From Methanomassiliicoccales archaeon (GTDB lineage Archaea > Thermoplasmatota > Thermoplasmata > RBG-16-68-12 > SOIM01), in assembly GCA_030593885.1 (NCBI GenBank), contig JAUVGH010000012.1:1-54164 (forward strand): a stretch of 54,164 nucleotides of DNA, read 5' to 3'. The notes beneath the pieces were generated by a model. That model was not told where the DNA came from. It saw nothing but the letters and a program-made list of their open reading frames with translations, and searched no databases. Positions 21,493-26,397 of this stretch are shown piece after piece. The position numbers and the translations under genes were made by a program. Positions within the stretch are counted from its first letter, which is position 1. Each line of letters starts with the position of its first letter.

Positions 21493-24400
21493 ATGGAAGA
21501 GGATTTCCTCCAATGGATCTCCATCATCCCTGGTGTTGGACCTCAAAGAGCCAAGCGTCTCAAGAAGGCCGGATTAACGTCTCCCGAATCGATTCGCGAA
21601 GCTTCGATTGAAGAGATAGCACAGATTGAAGGGATTGGACCCGAGTTGGCCAAGCGCCTCAAGGATTATGCCGAAGAGATCGTTCAGTTGAGGGAAGATC
21701 AGGCCTTCTTGTTCATTTGTCCAGATTGTGGAGCATTCATAAGCCGAACCGCCAAGAAGTGTGAGGTCTGCGGTGCGGCAATTGAGGAAGGGGAGCCAGA
21801 TGAGACGGGGCTGGCACCCGAGCCTGAGCTTGTCAGTGAGGAGGAAGAGGCTCCAGAGTTGTTCATTTGTCCAGCGTGTGGCAGGTTCATCGGGAAGGAT
21901 GTTCGAACGTGTCCACATTGCGGTTCATCCTTCGACGAGGAGCCAGAGAGGGAGGAAAACCTCGAGAAGCTCATGTTGGAGCTTGAGAAGCAGCTGGAAG
22001 AACTTGACGAAGACATCAAGACCCCCTTGGAGGACCTCGAAGAGTATCTGAAGGAGGAACCCCTGAAGGTTGAGCCAAAAGAGAAGAAGGCGATAACCAA
22101 GGACTTCCTGAAGAGGTGGCAGCGTGTCAGGGAGGAGGAAGAACAGAAGGGAACCCGGAGGCTCGAGGAAGAGCTCCGGCATTACGACAGCCTGCTCGAT
22201 TCTGACCCCACACTTCAGAGGGCCTGGGGAAAGAAGGCCGTCATTCTAGTTGAACTTGGCCGGTTCGAGGAAGCAATAGAATGCTATGATAGACTCACTG
22301 AGCTGGATCCTGATAGGGAAGGGGAGTACAAGCTTGAAGTCCTTAACCTGGTCAAGGAGATCGAAGGGCTGGCCGGGGCCCCGGTCGAACCAGAGGAAGC
22401 TCCTTCGATAGATGAGAAGAATGAGATAGAGACGGCAGTCACCCATTACGATGAACTTCTGCGGATAGATCCATCATTGAAGCAGGCCTGGCAGACCCGA
22501 GGAGAACTGTTGGAGAAGCTGGGCCGACACGAGGAGGCCGTTGCCAGCTATGACAAGGCCATAGAATGCTCCAAGCAAGAGAGATTGCTCGAGATAATGG
22601 ACCTGGCAAGCCTCAGAAAGAAGGGCTTGATGGAAGGCCGAACCTCTAGCAAGGCCCTGATACAACGTATGGGCAGGACCAATGGCCTCGTGAACGGCAT
22701 GGTCAACGGGCGCACCAACGGGCGCGTCAATGGCATGGTCAATGGAAAGACCAACGGCCTCGTGAACGGAAGGGGCAGGGTCAACGGCATGGTGAACGGC
22801 CTTGTCAATGGTCTGATGGACGGTGAGGGCAGGGTCAACGGCATGGTGAACGGCCTGGTCAACGGACTTGTCAATGGTATGGGAAGGGTCAACGGCCTGG
22901 TGAACGGCCTGATCAATGGTAACGGGCTGGTGAACGGGAGAGGGTCGAAGCACATGCCCCGGTTCAGAACTACTGGTGTGGGATGGACCAGATCCCTTGG
23001 AGCAATTGCGGCTGTCCTTTCGATACTGATCGTCGTGCCGCTTCTTATTGGCCTGATTTCGCCCCCCGCGCTTCCCTCTCCTATTAAGGTCGATGGCAAT
23101 TTCAATGACTGGGCCGGCGTCCGTGCTTTTGCTGATGGCCAGTTAGACCAAACTGCCAATCCTGATGTGAATGTCATTTCGTACAAGGCCGAGATACACA
23201 GGAACACCGCGTTCGTCTATGCCAAGGTCGAAGGTGTCATACTCAACGGTTCAGGGAGTCAAGGCGTTGATTCGATCTACGTTTTCATAGATAAGGACAA
23301 TGACCCGGACACAGGCTATCTTGTTGCAGGACTGGGTGCCGACAATCTGATTGAAATCGGGGGATGGAACAACTCAATCGAGAAGAGCGCCTTCTATACC
23401 TTCTCTGAGGGCTTTGAGAGGGATGACTGGAGCTCATTTCGAAGGGTCCATCGGGTGAACAGCGCCATTGGAGTCCAGGAGTTCGAGACGGCGTTCGGCG
23501 TGAACGGCGTCAAGGATCCTCGGATATTCGTCACGACCTCGGACAATGTCGGTAACTTCGACTTCTTTGACACAATAGTCAGTCCAAAGAAGGATGTGCT
23601 GAAGGTCGTCCAGACCACCATCGCTCCGGAAGTGATCCCGGTAATCGCACCAGTCCACTTCCTGAAGCTCGATCTCGATGCCCGAAACGGGGCTGCCCGC
23701 ATCTCCCAGATAAACATCACCAAGAATGGCGATGTCCTCGATTCGTCTGTTGCAATCGACCTCGCAATAGACTTCGACGGCGATGAAGTACCTGATCAGC
23801 AGGTTTCCTCAGCGGTGTTCTTGACCGATATGGCAACATTCGACGTCGACCTCGAAGTGATCAGCGGAATGACACTGATCGTTTCTGTGGCGCTCACAAA
23901 TTCGGCTCCCTCAGCCAGCCTCGGGCTCAGCTTGACAGGAATGACCACCAACGCAACCGTTTCTATCATTGACGAGTTCATCACAAAGGCCTACCTTGAA
24001 GTCGCTCCGATCGTCACAATAGATGGGGCTTTCGGCGACTGGTCCTCCATCAACAGGGTCCAGGATGGCAATGACGATGTCGTAATGAAGGGCCCGCCCA
24101 CAGCTTGGATCAATGAGAACGTCGATCTCAGGAACTACGCGGTTAACGTTGGCGCAGAAGCCTCGTTCTATCTGAACGTGGACGGGAATGTTCTCGGAGG
24201 TGCGGACATACCCATCTTCAGGCGGAGGCCAACCGTTTCCTCCGTATTCTTGGACAGCGATCGGGATTCTGTCCCCGATGATTTCGACTTTTACGACTTC
24301 GATTTCAACAACGATGCGATTCCTGACAGTCAGACCGGTAATGACTTCGACGGGGACGACATCCTGGATTATCCCTTGGGATCTGACTATTGGCTCAATA

Positions 24401-26124
24401 CCACGATACCCATTGACTTCCCTGCACCTTATGCGAATACCAATGTCTCGGTCTTCATCGGCCCAATGACATACCCGGTCGTGAAAGGTCTGGATACGCT
24501 CTCAATATACATTGATGCCGATAATGACACTACCACCGGACTCCCCATGATTCTGAACAGCCAATCATACGGAATGGACAAGCTCTTGGTGGTATCCGGG
24601 AGGAATGGTGTTGCTCACGTCGCAGGGCTTTACAGGCACGTTCCCCTGTCCATTCCCTGGGAATATGTGGAAGATATCTCCAGTCTGGCCTTCGATACCC
24701 GGTCGATGGAACTCTCTGTCCCTCTGACTTCTTTGCAGCTCGGCCCCGGCTTCTCGGTGGTTTTCAATCTCATGGACTGGCAACGCGACTTCGACATCTC
24801 TGATCAAGCCACAGGTCGGTCCCGAAGCCCCTCAACTGGTACGAGATCTCCAGCTGGTGACGATGTCGTTATCAACGAGGTCTATTCGGTCACTGCAACA
24901 AATGAGTGGTTCGAACTTGTGAACCCAACTTCCAGCGCGATCAATCTGAATAACTGGGAGGTCGAGATAAAGAGCAAAGGAAAATGGACAAGCATTTACA
25001 TTTTTGGCGCCGTGTCAATTGGAGCCTGGCTGAGCGGAAGTGAGTATTTGGACGTCGACCTGCCACAGAACTCCATCAAGGACAAGCCCGTCGACATTCG
25101 CCTATTGGACTCGACAGGGACTGTAGTGGATACGACCAAGCTTCCCAAGCTCAAACCGGGCGAGAGCTGGGCTCGGTTCAAGGACGAAACAGATGGAAAG
25201 CCCGAGGACACTGACGATGACTCGAGTGATTGGTATGTGTCCATATCACCAACAAAGGGCAAGTACAACGAGAGGAAACGCCCGATAATAGCCGTGGAGA
25301 AGACCTCCAACACCGGAACTGGAGCTCCAGGGGATCTGATTACGTACACCATCTACTACAACAACACTGGGGACGGCATCTCGAAGGACATATGGATAAA
25401 CGACACCCTACCATCAGAAGTCACTTTCATCTCCTCTTCGGAAACACCCGTCGGCTCATCTGGCAACACATACTACTGGGAATTCACCAACGCCGCTCCA
25501 GGATCGTCGAACTCGTTCACTGTCACAGTCCAAGTTAATGACGGACTTACGGACGGAACGCCGTTCAACAACTACGTGGAACTGGATTATACGGACGTGT
25601 TCCGGCAACCCATGGAATGGTCAAGTTCGAACAAGACCATGGTCGTTGAGCGTCCGGTGATCACGGTCGTCAAGGTCTCAGATGTGGCCGATGCGGGAAT
25701 TGGCGACACGATCACCTACACCATCTACTACAACAACACGGGCAACGGGACGGCAGCCCATGTATGGGTCAACGACACCATTCCGATATTCACCACTTTT
25801 CAGTCTTCCAGCGTTCCCTTTGAGTCCCAAGTAGGTCTGACCTATGTGTTCCACTTCTACGATGTGACGCCTGGATCCAACTCGTTCACAATCTCAGTGA
25901 TGGTCAATATGACTGCCCCAGACGGGATCGACCTGGTGAATCTGGCGGTTCTGGACTATACCACCGTCAATGAATATCCACTGGAAAGCAGCAGTGACAC
26001 GGCCATCGTCCACGTTCCCGAGTTCGATGCCTATCTTATCCCGATAATCAGCGTGGTCGTCATCTTCATGTTAAGGAACAAGAGGGCGAAGAAACGTCGA
26101 GAAGAGGATTCTGAAAAAGAGTGA
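21493..26124 (+). CDS. Giant transmembrane protein: HhH, zinc ribbons, TPRs, NG-repeat tract, ectodomains
   Basis: 1543 residues of unusual composition. Cytoplasmic half: a helix-hairpin-helix pair (5-62; IPGVGPQRAKRLKKAGLTSP, IEGIGPELAKRLKD), two zinc ribbons (74-97 and 122-147; CPDC/CEVC and CPAC/CPHC), an acidic helical linker and two TPR units (229-272, 316-359). Then comes a 90-residue tract of x-V-N-G tetrapeptides (395-485) and a membrane helix (500-522). Extracytoplasmic half: two domains starting with VDGNFNDW / IDGAFGDW (about 531 and 836), Asp-rich calcium-type loops, a lamin-tail-like domain (about 1120-1255; VVINEVYSVTATNEWFELVN), two DUF11-type repeats (about 1263-1383, 1386-1506; TYTIYYNNTG in both) and a C-terminal membrane helix (1511-1531). 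It probably links the cell surface to cytoplasmic partners. No known homologue with this order comes to mind. Confidence 0.8.
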   Translation: MEEDFLQWISIIPGVGPQRAKRLKKAGLTSPESIREASIEEIAQIEGIGPELAKRLKDYAEEIVQLREDQAFLFICPDCGAFISRTAKKCEVCGAAIEEGEPDETGLAPEPELVSEEEEAPELFICPACGRFIGKDVRTCPHCGSSFDEEPEREENLEKLMLELEKQLEELDEDIKTPLEDLEEYLKEEPLKVEPKEKKAITKDFLKRWQRVREEEEQKGTRRLEEELRHYDSLLDSDPTLQRAWGKKAVILVELGRFEEAIECYDRLTELDPDREGEYKLEVLNLVKEIEGLAGAPVEPEEAPSIDEKNEIETAVTHYDELLRIDPSLKQAWQTRGELLEKLGRHEEAVASYDKAIECSKQERLLEIMDLASLRKKGLMEGRTSSKALIQRMGRTNGLVNGMVNGRTNGRVNGMVNGKTNGLVNGRGRVNGMVNGLVNGLMDGEGRVNGMVNGLVNGLVNGMGRVNGLVNGLINGNGLVNGRGSKHMPRFRTTGVGWTRSLGAIAAVLSILIVVPLLIGLISPPALPSPIKVDGNFNDWAGVRAFADGQLDQTANPDVNVISYKAEIHRNTAFVYAKVEGVILNGSGSQGVDSIYVFIDKDNDPDTGYLVAGLGADNLIEIGGWNNSIEKSAFYTFSEGFERDDWSSFRRVHRVNSAIGVQEFETAFGVNGVKDPRIFVTTSDNVGNFDFFDTIVSPKKDVLKVVQTTIAPEVIPVIAPVHFLKLDLDARNGAARISQINITKNGDVLDSSVAIDLAIDFDGDEVPDQQVSSAVFLTDMATFDVDLEVISGMTLIVSVALTNSAPSASLGLSLTGMTTNATVSIIDEFITKAYLEVAPIVTIDGAFGDWSSINRVQDGNDDVVMKGPPTAWINENVDLRNYAVNVGAEASFYLNVDGNVLGGADIPIFRRRPTVSSVFLDSDRDSVPDDFDFYDFDFNNDAIPDSQTGNDFDGDDILDYPLGSDYWLNTTIPIDFPAPYANTNVSVFIGPMTYPVVKGLDTLSIYIDADNDTTTGLPMILNSQSYGMDKLLVVSGRNGVAHVAGLYRHVPLSIPWEYVEDISSLAFDTRSMELSVPLTSLQLGPGFSVVFNLMDWQRDFDISDQATGRSRSPSTGTRSPAGDDVVINEVYSVTATNEWFELVNPTSSAINLNNWEVEIKSKGKWTSIYIFGAVSIGAWLSGSEYLDVDLPQNSIKDKPVDIRLLDSTGTVVDTTKLPKLKPGESWARFKDETDGKPEDTDDDSSDWYVSISPTKGKYNERKRPIIAVEKTSNTGTGAPGDLITYTIYYNNTGDGISKDIWINDTLPSEVTFISSSETPVGSSGNTYYWEFTNAAPGSSNSFTVTVQVNDGLTDGTPFNNYVELDYTDVFRQPMEWSSSNKTMVVERPVITVVKVSDVADAGIGDTITYTIYYNNTGNGTAAHVWVNDTIPIFTTFQSSSVPFESQVGLTYVFHFYDVTPGSNSFTISVMVNMTAPDGIDLVNLAVLDYTTVNEYPLESSSDTAIVHVPEFDAYLIPIISVVVIFMLRNKRAKKRREEDSEKE
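22675..22947 (+). repeat. 12-bp-period coding repeat (x-V-N-G tetrapeptide tract)
   Basis: About 90 codons of near-continuous tetrapeptides (GLVNGMVNGRTNGRVNG and variants), with occasional GRG/GEG spacers every 20-30 residues. At DNA level the unit is about 12 bp, with longer near-identical blocks (a roughly 27-bp block at 22775-22801 recurs at 22827-22853), indicating expansion by slippage or unequal exchange. It lies between the TPR part and the membrane helix. Confidence 0.85.
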
Positions 26125-26128
26125 GGGG

Positions 26129-26366
26129 GTGGCTGACAGCTTTCCATGAGCCAGAAGGCCGTTAAAGCAGCGCGGTTTACCGACAACCATTGGCCGAAGC
26201 CTCCGGAAGCCAGCTCCCGCACCTAGGCCAAAGGTTCACGACCCCCGAAGGGGCTAAGCTTCCCGTGGGCTCGCGCACCACAGTACCGCAGAGAACGTAG
26301 GCGGGCTTAACTTCTGGGTTCGGGATGAGACCAGGTGTATCCCCACCGCTATGGCCGTCATACCAC
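26129..26366 (-). rRNA. 5S ribosomal RNA with a large internal insertion
   Basis: The conserved 5S core is clear on the minus strand: CCATAGCGG, CCCGAACCCAGAAGTTAAGC, CTACGTTCTCTGCGGTACTG and the helix IV hairpin TGGTGCGCGAGCCCACGGGA. The 3' strand of helix I is missing where expected and instead appears 119 nt further on: GCTGTCAGCCAC (26129-26140) pairs with the 5' end GTGGTATGACGGC (26354-26366), 12 pairs with two wobbles and one bulged A. Without the extra segment the molecule would be about 119 nt, the normal size. A TATA box near 26393 predicts a start close to 26366, and a T-run (26114-26118, inside the end of the upstream convergent gene) follows the 3' end. It is not linked to 16S or 23S genes, as in Thermoplasma. 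Exact ends are estimates. Confidence 0.85.
26138..26256 (-). other. About 119-nt insertion within the 5S rRNA gene
   Basis: Located between the helix IV/V region and the 3' strand of helix I, and flanked by GGGAAGCT (26257-26264) and GGAAAGCT (26138-26145). It is GC-rich and can form hairpins, for example CCCC-TTC-GGGG next to the 5' junction, while AGCC and GGCT near the two ends can pair. No convincing bulge-helix-bulge splice motif was found, so the segment may stay in the mature RNA as reported for Halococcus morrhuae. Boundaries are uncertain by several bases because of the flanking repeat. Confidence 0.65.
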
Positions 26367-26388: not shown

Positions 26389-26397
26389 GCTATAAAG
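26389..26397 (-). promoter_or_regulatory. TATA box of the 5S rRNA gene
   Basis: Minus-strand TCTTTATAG is centred about 27 bp before 26366, the inferred 5' end. A CTTTGA-ACG-TCAAAG dyad lies between box and gene (about 26366-26380). Confidence 0.5.

Follow-up and report, generated by a model that had tools for sequence, protein, structure and literature searches.

The window examined here, a stretch of 54,164 nucleotides of DNA from a Methanomassiliicoccales archaeon, carries on its minus strand a single gene for 5S rRNA, about 238 nt long (26129–26366), the RNA of which is nearly twice the usual size owing to an extra folded arm of about 110 nt. 5S rRNA is generally treated as nearly invariant. 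The reading which best accounts for the data, and which we regard as highly probable, is that of one functional 5S gene whose product retains an expansion segment homologous to the insert of Halococcus, derived from an old and patchily distributed domain, with a loop that may act as a docking surface.

In this model, the segment would break into helix V on the stretch that links loop E to the three-way junction, and the site would become a four-way junction. By analogy with the cryo-EM structure of Halococcus, it would consist of a short hairpin and a long arm that point outward, away from the central protuberance, with the long arm divided into a conserved core (P1, an internal loop of the form YNA:GYU..AA, and P2) and a variable tip. 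Homology would extend to Halococcus and its relatives, and descent would be from an old 5S domain that became patchy in Thermoplasmatota and Halobacteriota via repeated loss, transfer or both. The least certain step, which has about an even chance of being right, concerns the conserved internal loop, which may be a surface on which a ribosomal protein or an assembly factor docks, or one that makes a tertiary contact with RNA.

Site and fold of the inserted segment

The insertion point is flanked on one side by GGGAAG, the loop E 3' strand, with which the 5' part of the 5S core ends (26259–26366, as aligned with relatives and by Rfam; this and all following features of the gene are on the minus strand), and on the other by GGAAAGC (26139–26145), in the region of the helix V 3' strand. 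This second motif reads GGAACGC in most relatives, overlaps the first bases of the 3' strand of helix I and has an equivalent motif in relatives that lack the insert. The placement follows from these insert-free relatives, which read, for instance, CGGGAAGCCUGGAACGCUGUCAGCC across the site, with the two flanks joined directly. In the window, 113 nt separate the conserved 5S motifs (26146–26258), which makes the gene about 110 nt longer, net, than its insert-free counterparts, for example GGGAAGCCUGGAACGCUGUC. An earlier sequence-only reading of this DNA had placed an insertion of 119 nt directly before the helix I 3' strand; the comparison shortens it and moves it to the loop E/helix V position given above. 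The GGGAAGCT/GGAAAGCT repeat on its flanks, which had been taken to mark the insertion point, is rejected as a scar, as both segments are ordinary 5S sequence and are present in insert-free relatives.

The insert was modelled from 22 sequences as a covariance model (R1), which scores the window insert at 98.5 bits, the window being one of the 22 sequences used to build it. Judged by this score and by its presence across a dozen families, the insert is not a product of chance. No other Rfam family was detected within it at E-values up to 1.

The segment folds into a short hairpin (GCCCC-UUCG-GGGGU, 26241–26254), in which 98.6% of alignment cells are paired and all five pairs show compensatory changes, followed by a long arm. 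The arm starts with P1, whose 5' and 3' strands share the core GGCC (26226–26229 and 26157–26160) and are extended by outer pairs upstream and downstream, respectively; all eight pairs of this helix are compensatory. Next comes the conserved internal loop, composed of CUA on the first strand (26224–26226; YNA in the family, its first base possibly pairing in P1) and GCUUUAACG on the second (26160–26168; GYU..AA in the family, its last G possibly pairing in P1), both identified by core extraction and a shuffle test. P2 follows, formed by GGUGCG (26218–26223) and CGCGCU (26169–26174) with 97.2% of cells paired; its strands, like those of P1, were also located by core extraction. Beyond a second loop, the alignment shows a variable tip of stems and a terminal hairpin which differs in length between sequences (26175–26217).

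Support for this fold comes from covariation. RNAalifold, run on 22 inserts in a MAFFT alignment that had not been fitted to any structure, returned 28 pairs, 24 of which have two-sided changes. In a larger alignment of 59 distinct sequences, which was fitted to the structure and whose numbers lean towards it, 90.2% of the cells pair, the covariation score is 0.687 compared to 0.267 for shuffled and at most 0.162 for slid controls, and two-sided changes are found in 364 cells compared to 110 after shuffling.

Distribution and probable kinship with the Halococcus insert

The search covered Thermoplasmatota and Halobacteriota, mostly as metagenome-assembled genomes (MAGs). A 5S gene was found in 92 of the 100 relatives searched, and the insert is present in every member of the window's order that can be read through the site, a few sequences stopping at a contig edge. 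Across the class, R1 matches 71 of 400 sampled genomes in 12 families (f1–f8, f12, f13, f14 and f23), with inserts of 98–116 nt; families f9, f10, f11, f15–f22 and f24 have a normal 5S where inspected. Among the named carriers are Euryarchaeota archaeon RBG_16_67_27, Ca. Sysuiplasma superficiale, Ca. Saliniplasma halalkaliphilum and Ca. Haladaptatiplasma halalkaliphilum. The single-contig relatives G091 and G098 have one 5S gene each, with the insert; G004 has two, both with it.

A joint model (R3) extends this range to 20 genomes of family f48 from another Thermoplasmatota class, with E-values of 1e-10 to 1e-6 for genomes that had no part in building it; all five of the f48 matches inspected fall inside 5S genes. 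In Halobacteriota, R3 matches 8 of 394 genomes, one of them from a class of three species. Two species of this class match while the third has a normal 5S, and mcrA is present in one of the two; the class may be Methanonatronarchaeia. A scan of genome contigs revealed expanded 5S genes in Halalkalicoccus, in other Halobacteriales MAGs and in a Marine Group IV MAG, with more from the class Halobacteria. Matches to a pattern for the halobacterial distal stem-loop were often due to chance, and only those in a 5S context were used.

Some sequences stand apart. The 5S core of G008 (L040) has 9 nt missing in the loop C/helix III region (CCCGUU-AACCCGG), unlike its sister G012, by deletion or assembly error. 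G001:C76 (L122, about 590–720) has a second insert-like match, a 5S end with just the 3' half of an insert of f2 type behind unrelated sequence; the contig is probably stray or chimeric. The halobacterial expanded 5S in PXTT01000034.1 (L148), a Bacteroidetes MAG, most likely comes from a mis-binned haloarchaeal contig. In family f11, the 5S match at G041:C1:81505–81592 (L073) is just 88 nt long; both this and a second copy at G041:C9 appear to lack the part after loop E, while other f11 5S genes are normal.

To our knowledge, the sole well-studied large insert in an archaeal 5S rRNA is that of Halococcus, which had been regarded as restricted to a handful of genera of haloarchaea. It measures 108 nt in Halococcus morrhuae (PMC7530397, PMC7812874), is located at 104.1/105 between loop E and the three-way junction, is V-shaped, one limb being a short hairpin and the other a long arm (PMC7812874), and exits the core at a four-way junction, as seen by cryo-EM (PMC7530397). 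When aligned with insert-free relatives and with halobacterial expanded 5S genes, the window insert falls at the same site. The resemblance to H. morrhuae of a GC-rich, structured insertion in a Thermoplasmata genome had already been pointed out by the sequence-only reading and holds; its further assumption that the two are independent does not fit the common site and the shared covarying core, which make a relationship probable.

The main competing explanation is convergence, in which unrelated insertions in Thermoplasmatota and Halobacteriota reached similar two-armed folds. Such an origin would suit a site that has been argued to be permissive and outward-facing (PMC7812874), as well as the different distal hairpins of Halobacteria and Thermoplasmata. 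It would also suit a tree of EF-2, made by a quick method from a single gene and only a guide, in which insert-bearing and insert-free families are interleaved and at least seven changes of insert state are needed. R2, a model without flanks, also gives it some room: it is in register on halobacterial inserts but weak, with a best E-value of 0.77 in 47 kb. R1 reaches 31 bits (E 3.7e-5) on the Halalkalicoccus insert, partly from the 5S flanks, compared to less than 12 bits on normal halobacterial 5S loci. As R2 is weak because its alignment had lost the P1 3' strand, a shuffle test of the core motif was used instead. The core profile (P1, YNA:GYU..AA, P2), learned from Thermoplasmata and one f48-type sequence, was compared in 15 halobacterial variants with 400 dinucleotide shuffles of each. 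All 15 contain the internal loop with its flanking covarying stems, and only 0–9 of 400 shuffles were as good, with none in nine of the variants. Furthermore, the loop CCA:GUUACAACG is identical in Halalkalicoccus-type inserts and in G008 of the window's order, and MAFFT brought the cores of both groups into alignment unguided. In a joint alignment, 20 of 22 pairs have two-sided changes and covariation is 0.789 compared to 0.275, for a structure derived from the same alignment that was scored. These findings render convergence unlikely. The inserts are probably homologous, a conclusion based on the combination of common site, core motif and joint covariation and not on a single strong score.

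Both ancient presence followed by losses and horizontal transfer are compatible with the EF-2 tree. The same tree sets f1 and f2 apart from f3–f6 despite their assignment to one order, through single-gene signal or transfer. What was a haloarchaeal oddity now seems to be an old and widespread ribosomal domain, with related inserts in a dozen Thermoplasmata families, a second Thermoplasmatota class, Halobacteria and a small Halobacteriota class that includes a methanogen. An isolated oddity thereby becomes a comparative system for gain and loss, for retention and for the partner of the conserved loop. A bolder proposal, to which we would give a little less than an even chance, is that the ancestor of Thermoplasmatota and the Halobacteria-related archaea already had the expansion segment, that it was lost many times, and that its conserved internal loop has a specific binding partner, either protein or RNA; many archaeal ribosomes would then contain a functional domain that has not been described. 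No report of an expanded archaeal 5S outside Halobacteria was found in the openly accessible literature that was searched, so the novelty is provisional.

Probable retention of the insert and ends of the gene

Some insertions in rRNA genes are cut out, and this has been raised as a caution for 5S (PMC7812874); taking out the insert would leave a normal 5S core. The segment could accordingly be an intron or intervening sequence whose removal yields a normal spliced 5S or a nicked one held together by pairing. Excision by the archaeal route would call for a bulge-helix-bulge (BHB) motif across the junctions, but only 5 of 34 sequences satisfy the BHB definition, compared to 2.5 expected, and they do so in differing places. 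We also know of no self-splicing intron that matches the insert in length and structure. In Halococcus, the best-studied homolog, the cell's only 5S keeps the insert, which is visible in the large subunit (PMC7530397, PMC7812874). Removal of the insert is thus improbable, at perhaps one chance in ten.

A TATA box (TTTATA, 26391–26396) preceded by an A-rich, BRE-like stretch is found 25–30 nt before the 5S start, similar to the TATA-like box about 25–35 nt upstream of most Thermoplasmata genes inspected. Just past the distal 3' strand follows a pyrimidine- and T-rich tract (CUUUUUC, 26113–26119), a likely terminator; across 44 genes, the T fraction is 0.39 past the distal end compared to 0.22 within the insert. 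The lack of a recurrent BHB motif, the gene's own TATA box, the T-rich end beyond the distal strand and the retention in Halococcus together make a retained arm the best reading, and the insert most likely remains in the mature 5S rRNA. On the opposite strand, an open reading frame of 1543 aa (21493–26124) converges on the 5S gene. Read by eye, its start is helix-hairpin-helix-like; it also has CxxC motifs that resemble a zinc ribbon, TPR-like repeats and, ahead of a membrane segment, a series of repeats of the NGMVNG type.

The extent of the gene is set by helix I. The Rfam model RF00001 matches 26362–26243 with 74.1 bits, well above its curated cut-off of 38, and the conserved core segments are present. 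Taken literally, its stop at 26243 would mean an ordinary 5S followed by a separate small RNA or a spacer hairpin. The 3' end of that alignment is, however, forced onto the insert hairpin, where helix I pairing is poor, and only the distal strand GCUGUCAGCCAC (26129–26140) closes helix I with the 5' strand GUGGUAUGACGGC (26354–26366). Among the 22 distinct 5'/3' combinations, drawn from Thermoplasmatota and a single Halobacteriota relative, the inner seven pairs are standard without exception and show UA/CG compensation; covariation extends to the outer pairs (GUGGU/GCCAC, GCAAC/GUUGC, AGGGU/GCCCU, AUGGU/GCCAU). As helix I closes with this covarying distal strand, the gene has a length of about 238 nt. 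An ordinary 5S with a neighbouring RNA is rejected by the helix I covariation and the T-rich end past the distal strand, and with insert-free relatives joining the two flanks directly it is very improbable. In insert-bearing genomes, the 3' end given by the standard 5S model is about 115 nt short of the true one.

That this is one oversized gene closed by a distant strand was the central claim of the sequence-only reading and is borne out by the Rfam match and by compensatory changes across relatives. A normal 5S copy elsewhere would have spoken against it; no second 5S was found in the draft genome (2.14 Mb, 91 contigs, 86% complete). A pseudogene or an assembly artefact, conceivable for a draft MAG in 91 contigs, is refuted by the same structure in more than 70 independently assembled genomes, single-contig ones included, and its probability is negligible.

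Comparison with known systems

With the canonical archaeal 5S described by RF00001, the window gene shares all core helices and conserved segments, but it differs by the roughly 110 nt in helix V, and the canonical model truncates it at 26243. Archaeal BHB introns in rRNA and tRNA genes are likewise insertions, although the consistent motif that characterizes them is not found here. Bacterial expanded 5S rRNAs also carry structured insertions, but at other sites, such as the helix III bulge at 52–53 in the Thermoanaerobacter type, loop C and others (PMC7812874).

The closest likeness is to the Halococcus/Halalkalicoccus-type segment, which agrees with the insert described here in site, in V shape with an unbranched long arm and in the P1/YNA:GYU..AA/P2 core, and is similar in length. 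The Halococcus insert has been seen in the ribosome, whereas that of the window is known from its sequence, so its position there is drawn by analogy. In contrast to the Halococcus type, Thermoplasmata inserts also occur in lineages not known as halophiles, and in the window the gene has a stand-alone promoter. Their tips are of the UUCG type, the UUGU type or larger, unlike the distal hairpins of Halobacteria. The most conserved part of the halobacterial segment, a distal stem-loop around GGGUYCGUCCCGGUGGAA, is absent from them, and the Thermoplasmata insert is therefore best described as a variant of the Halococcus-type segment rather than as the same type.
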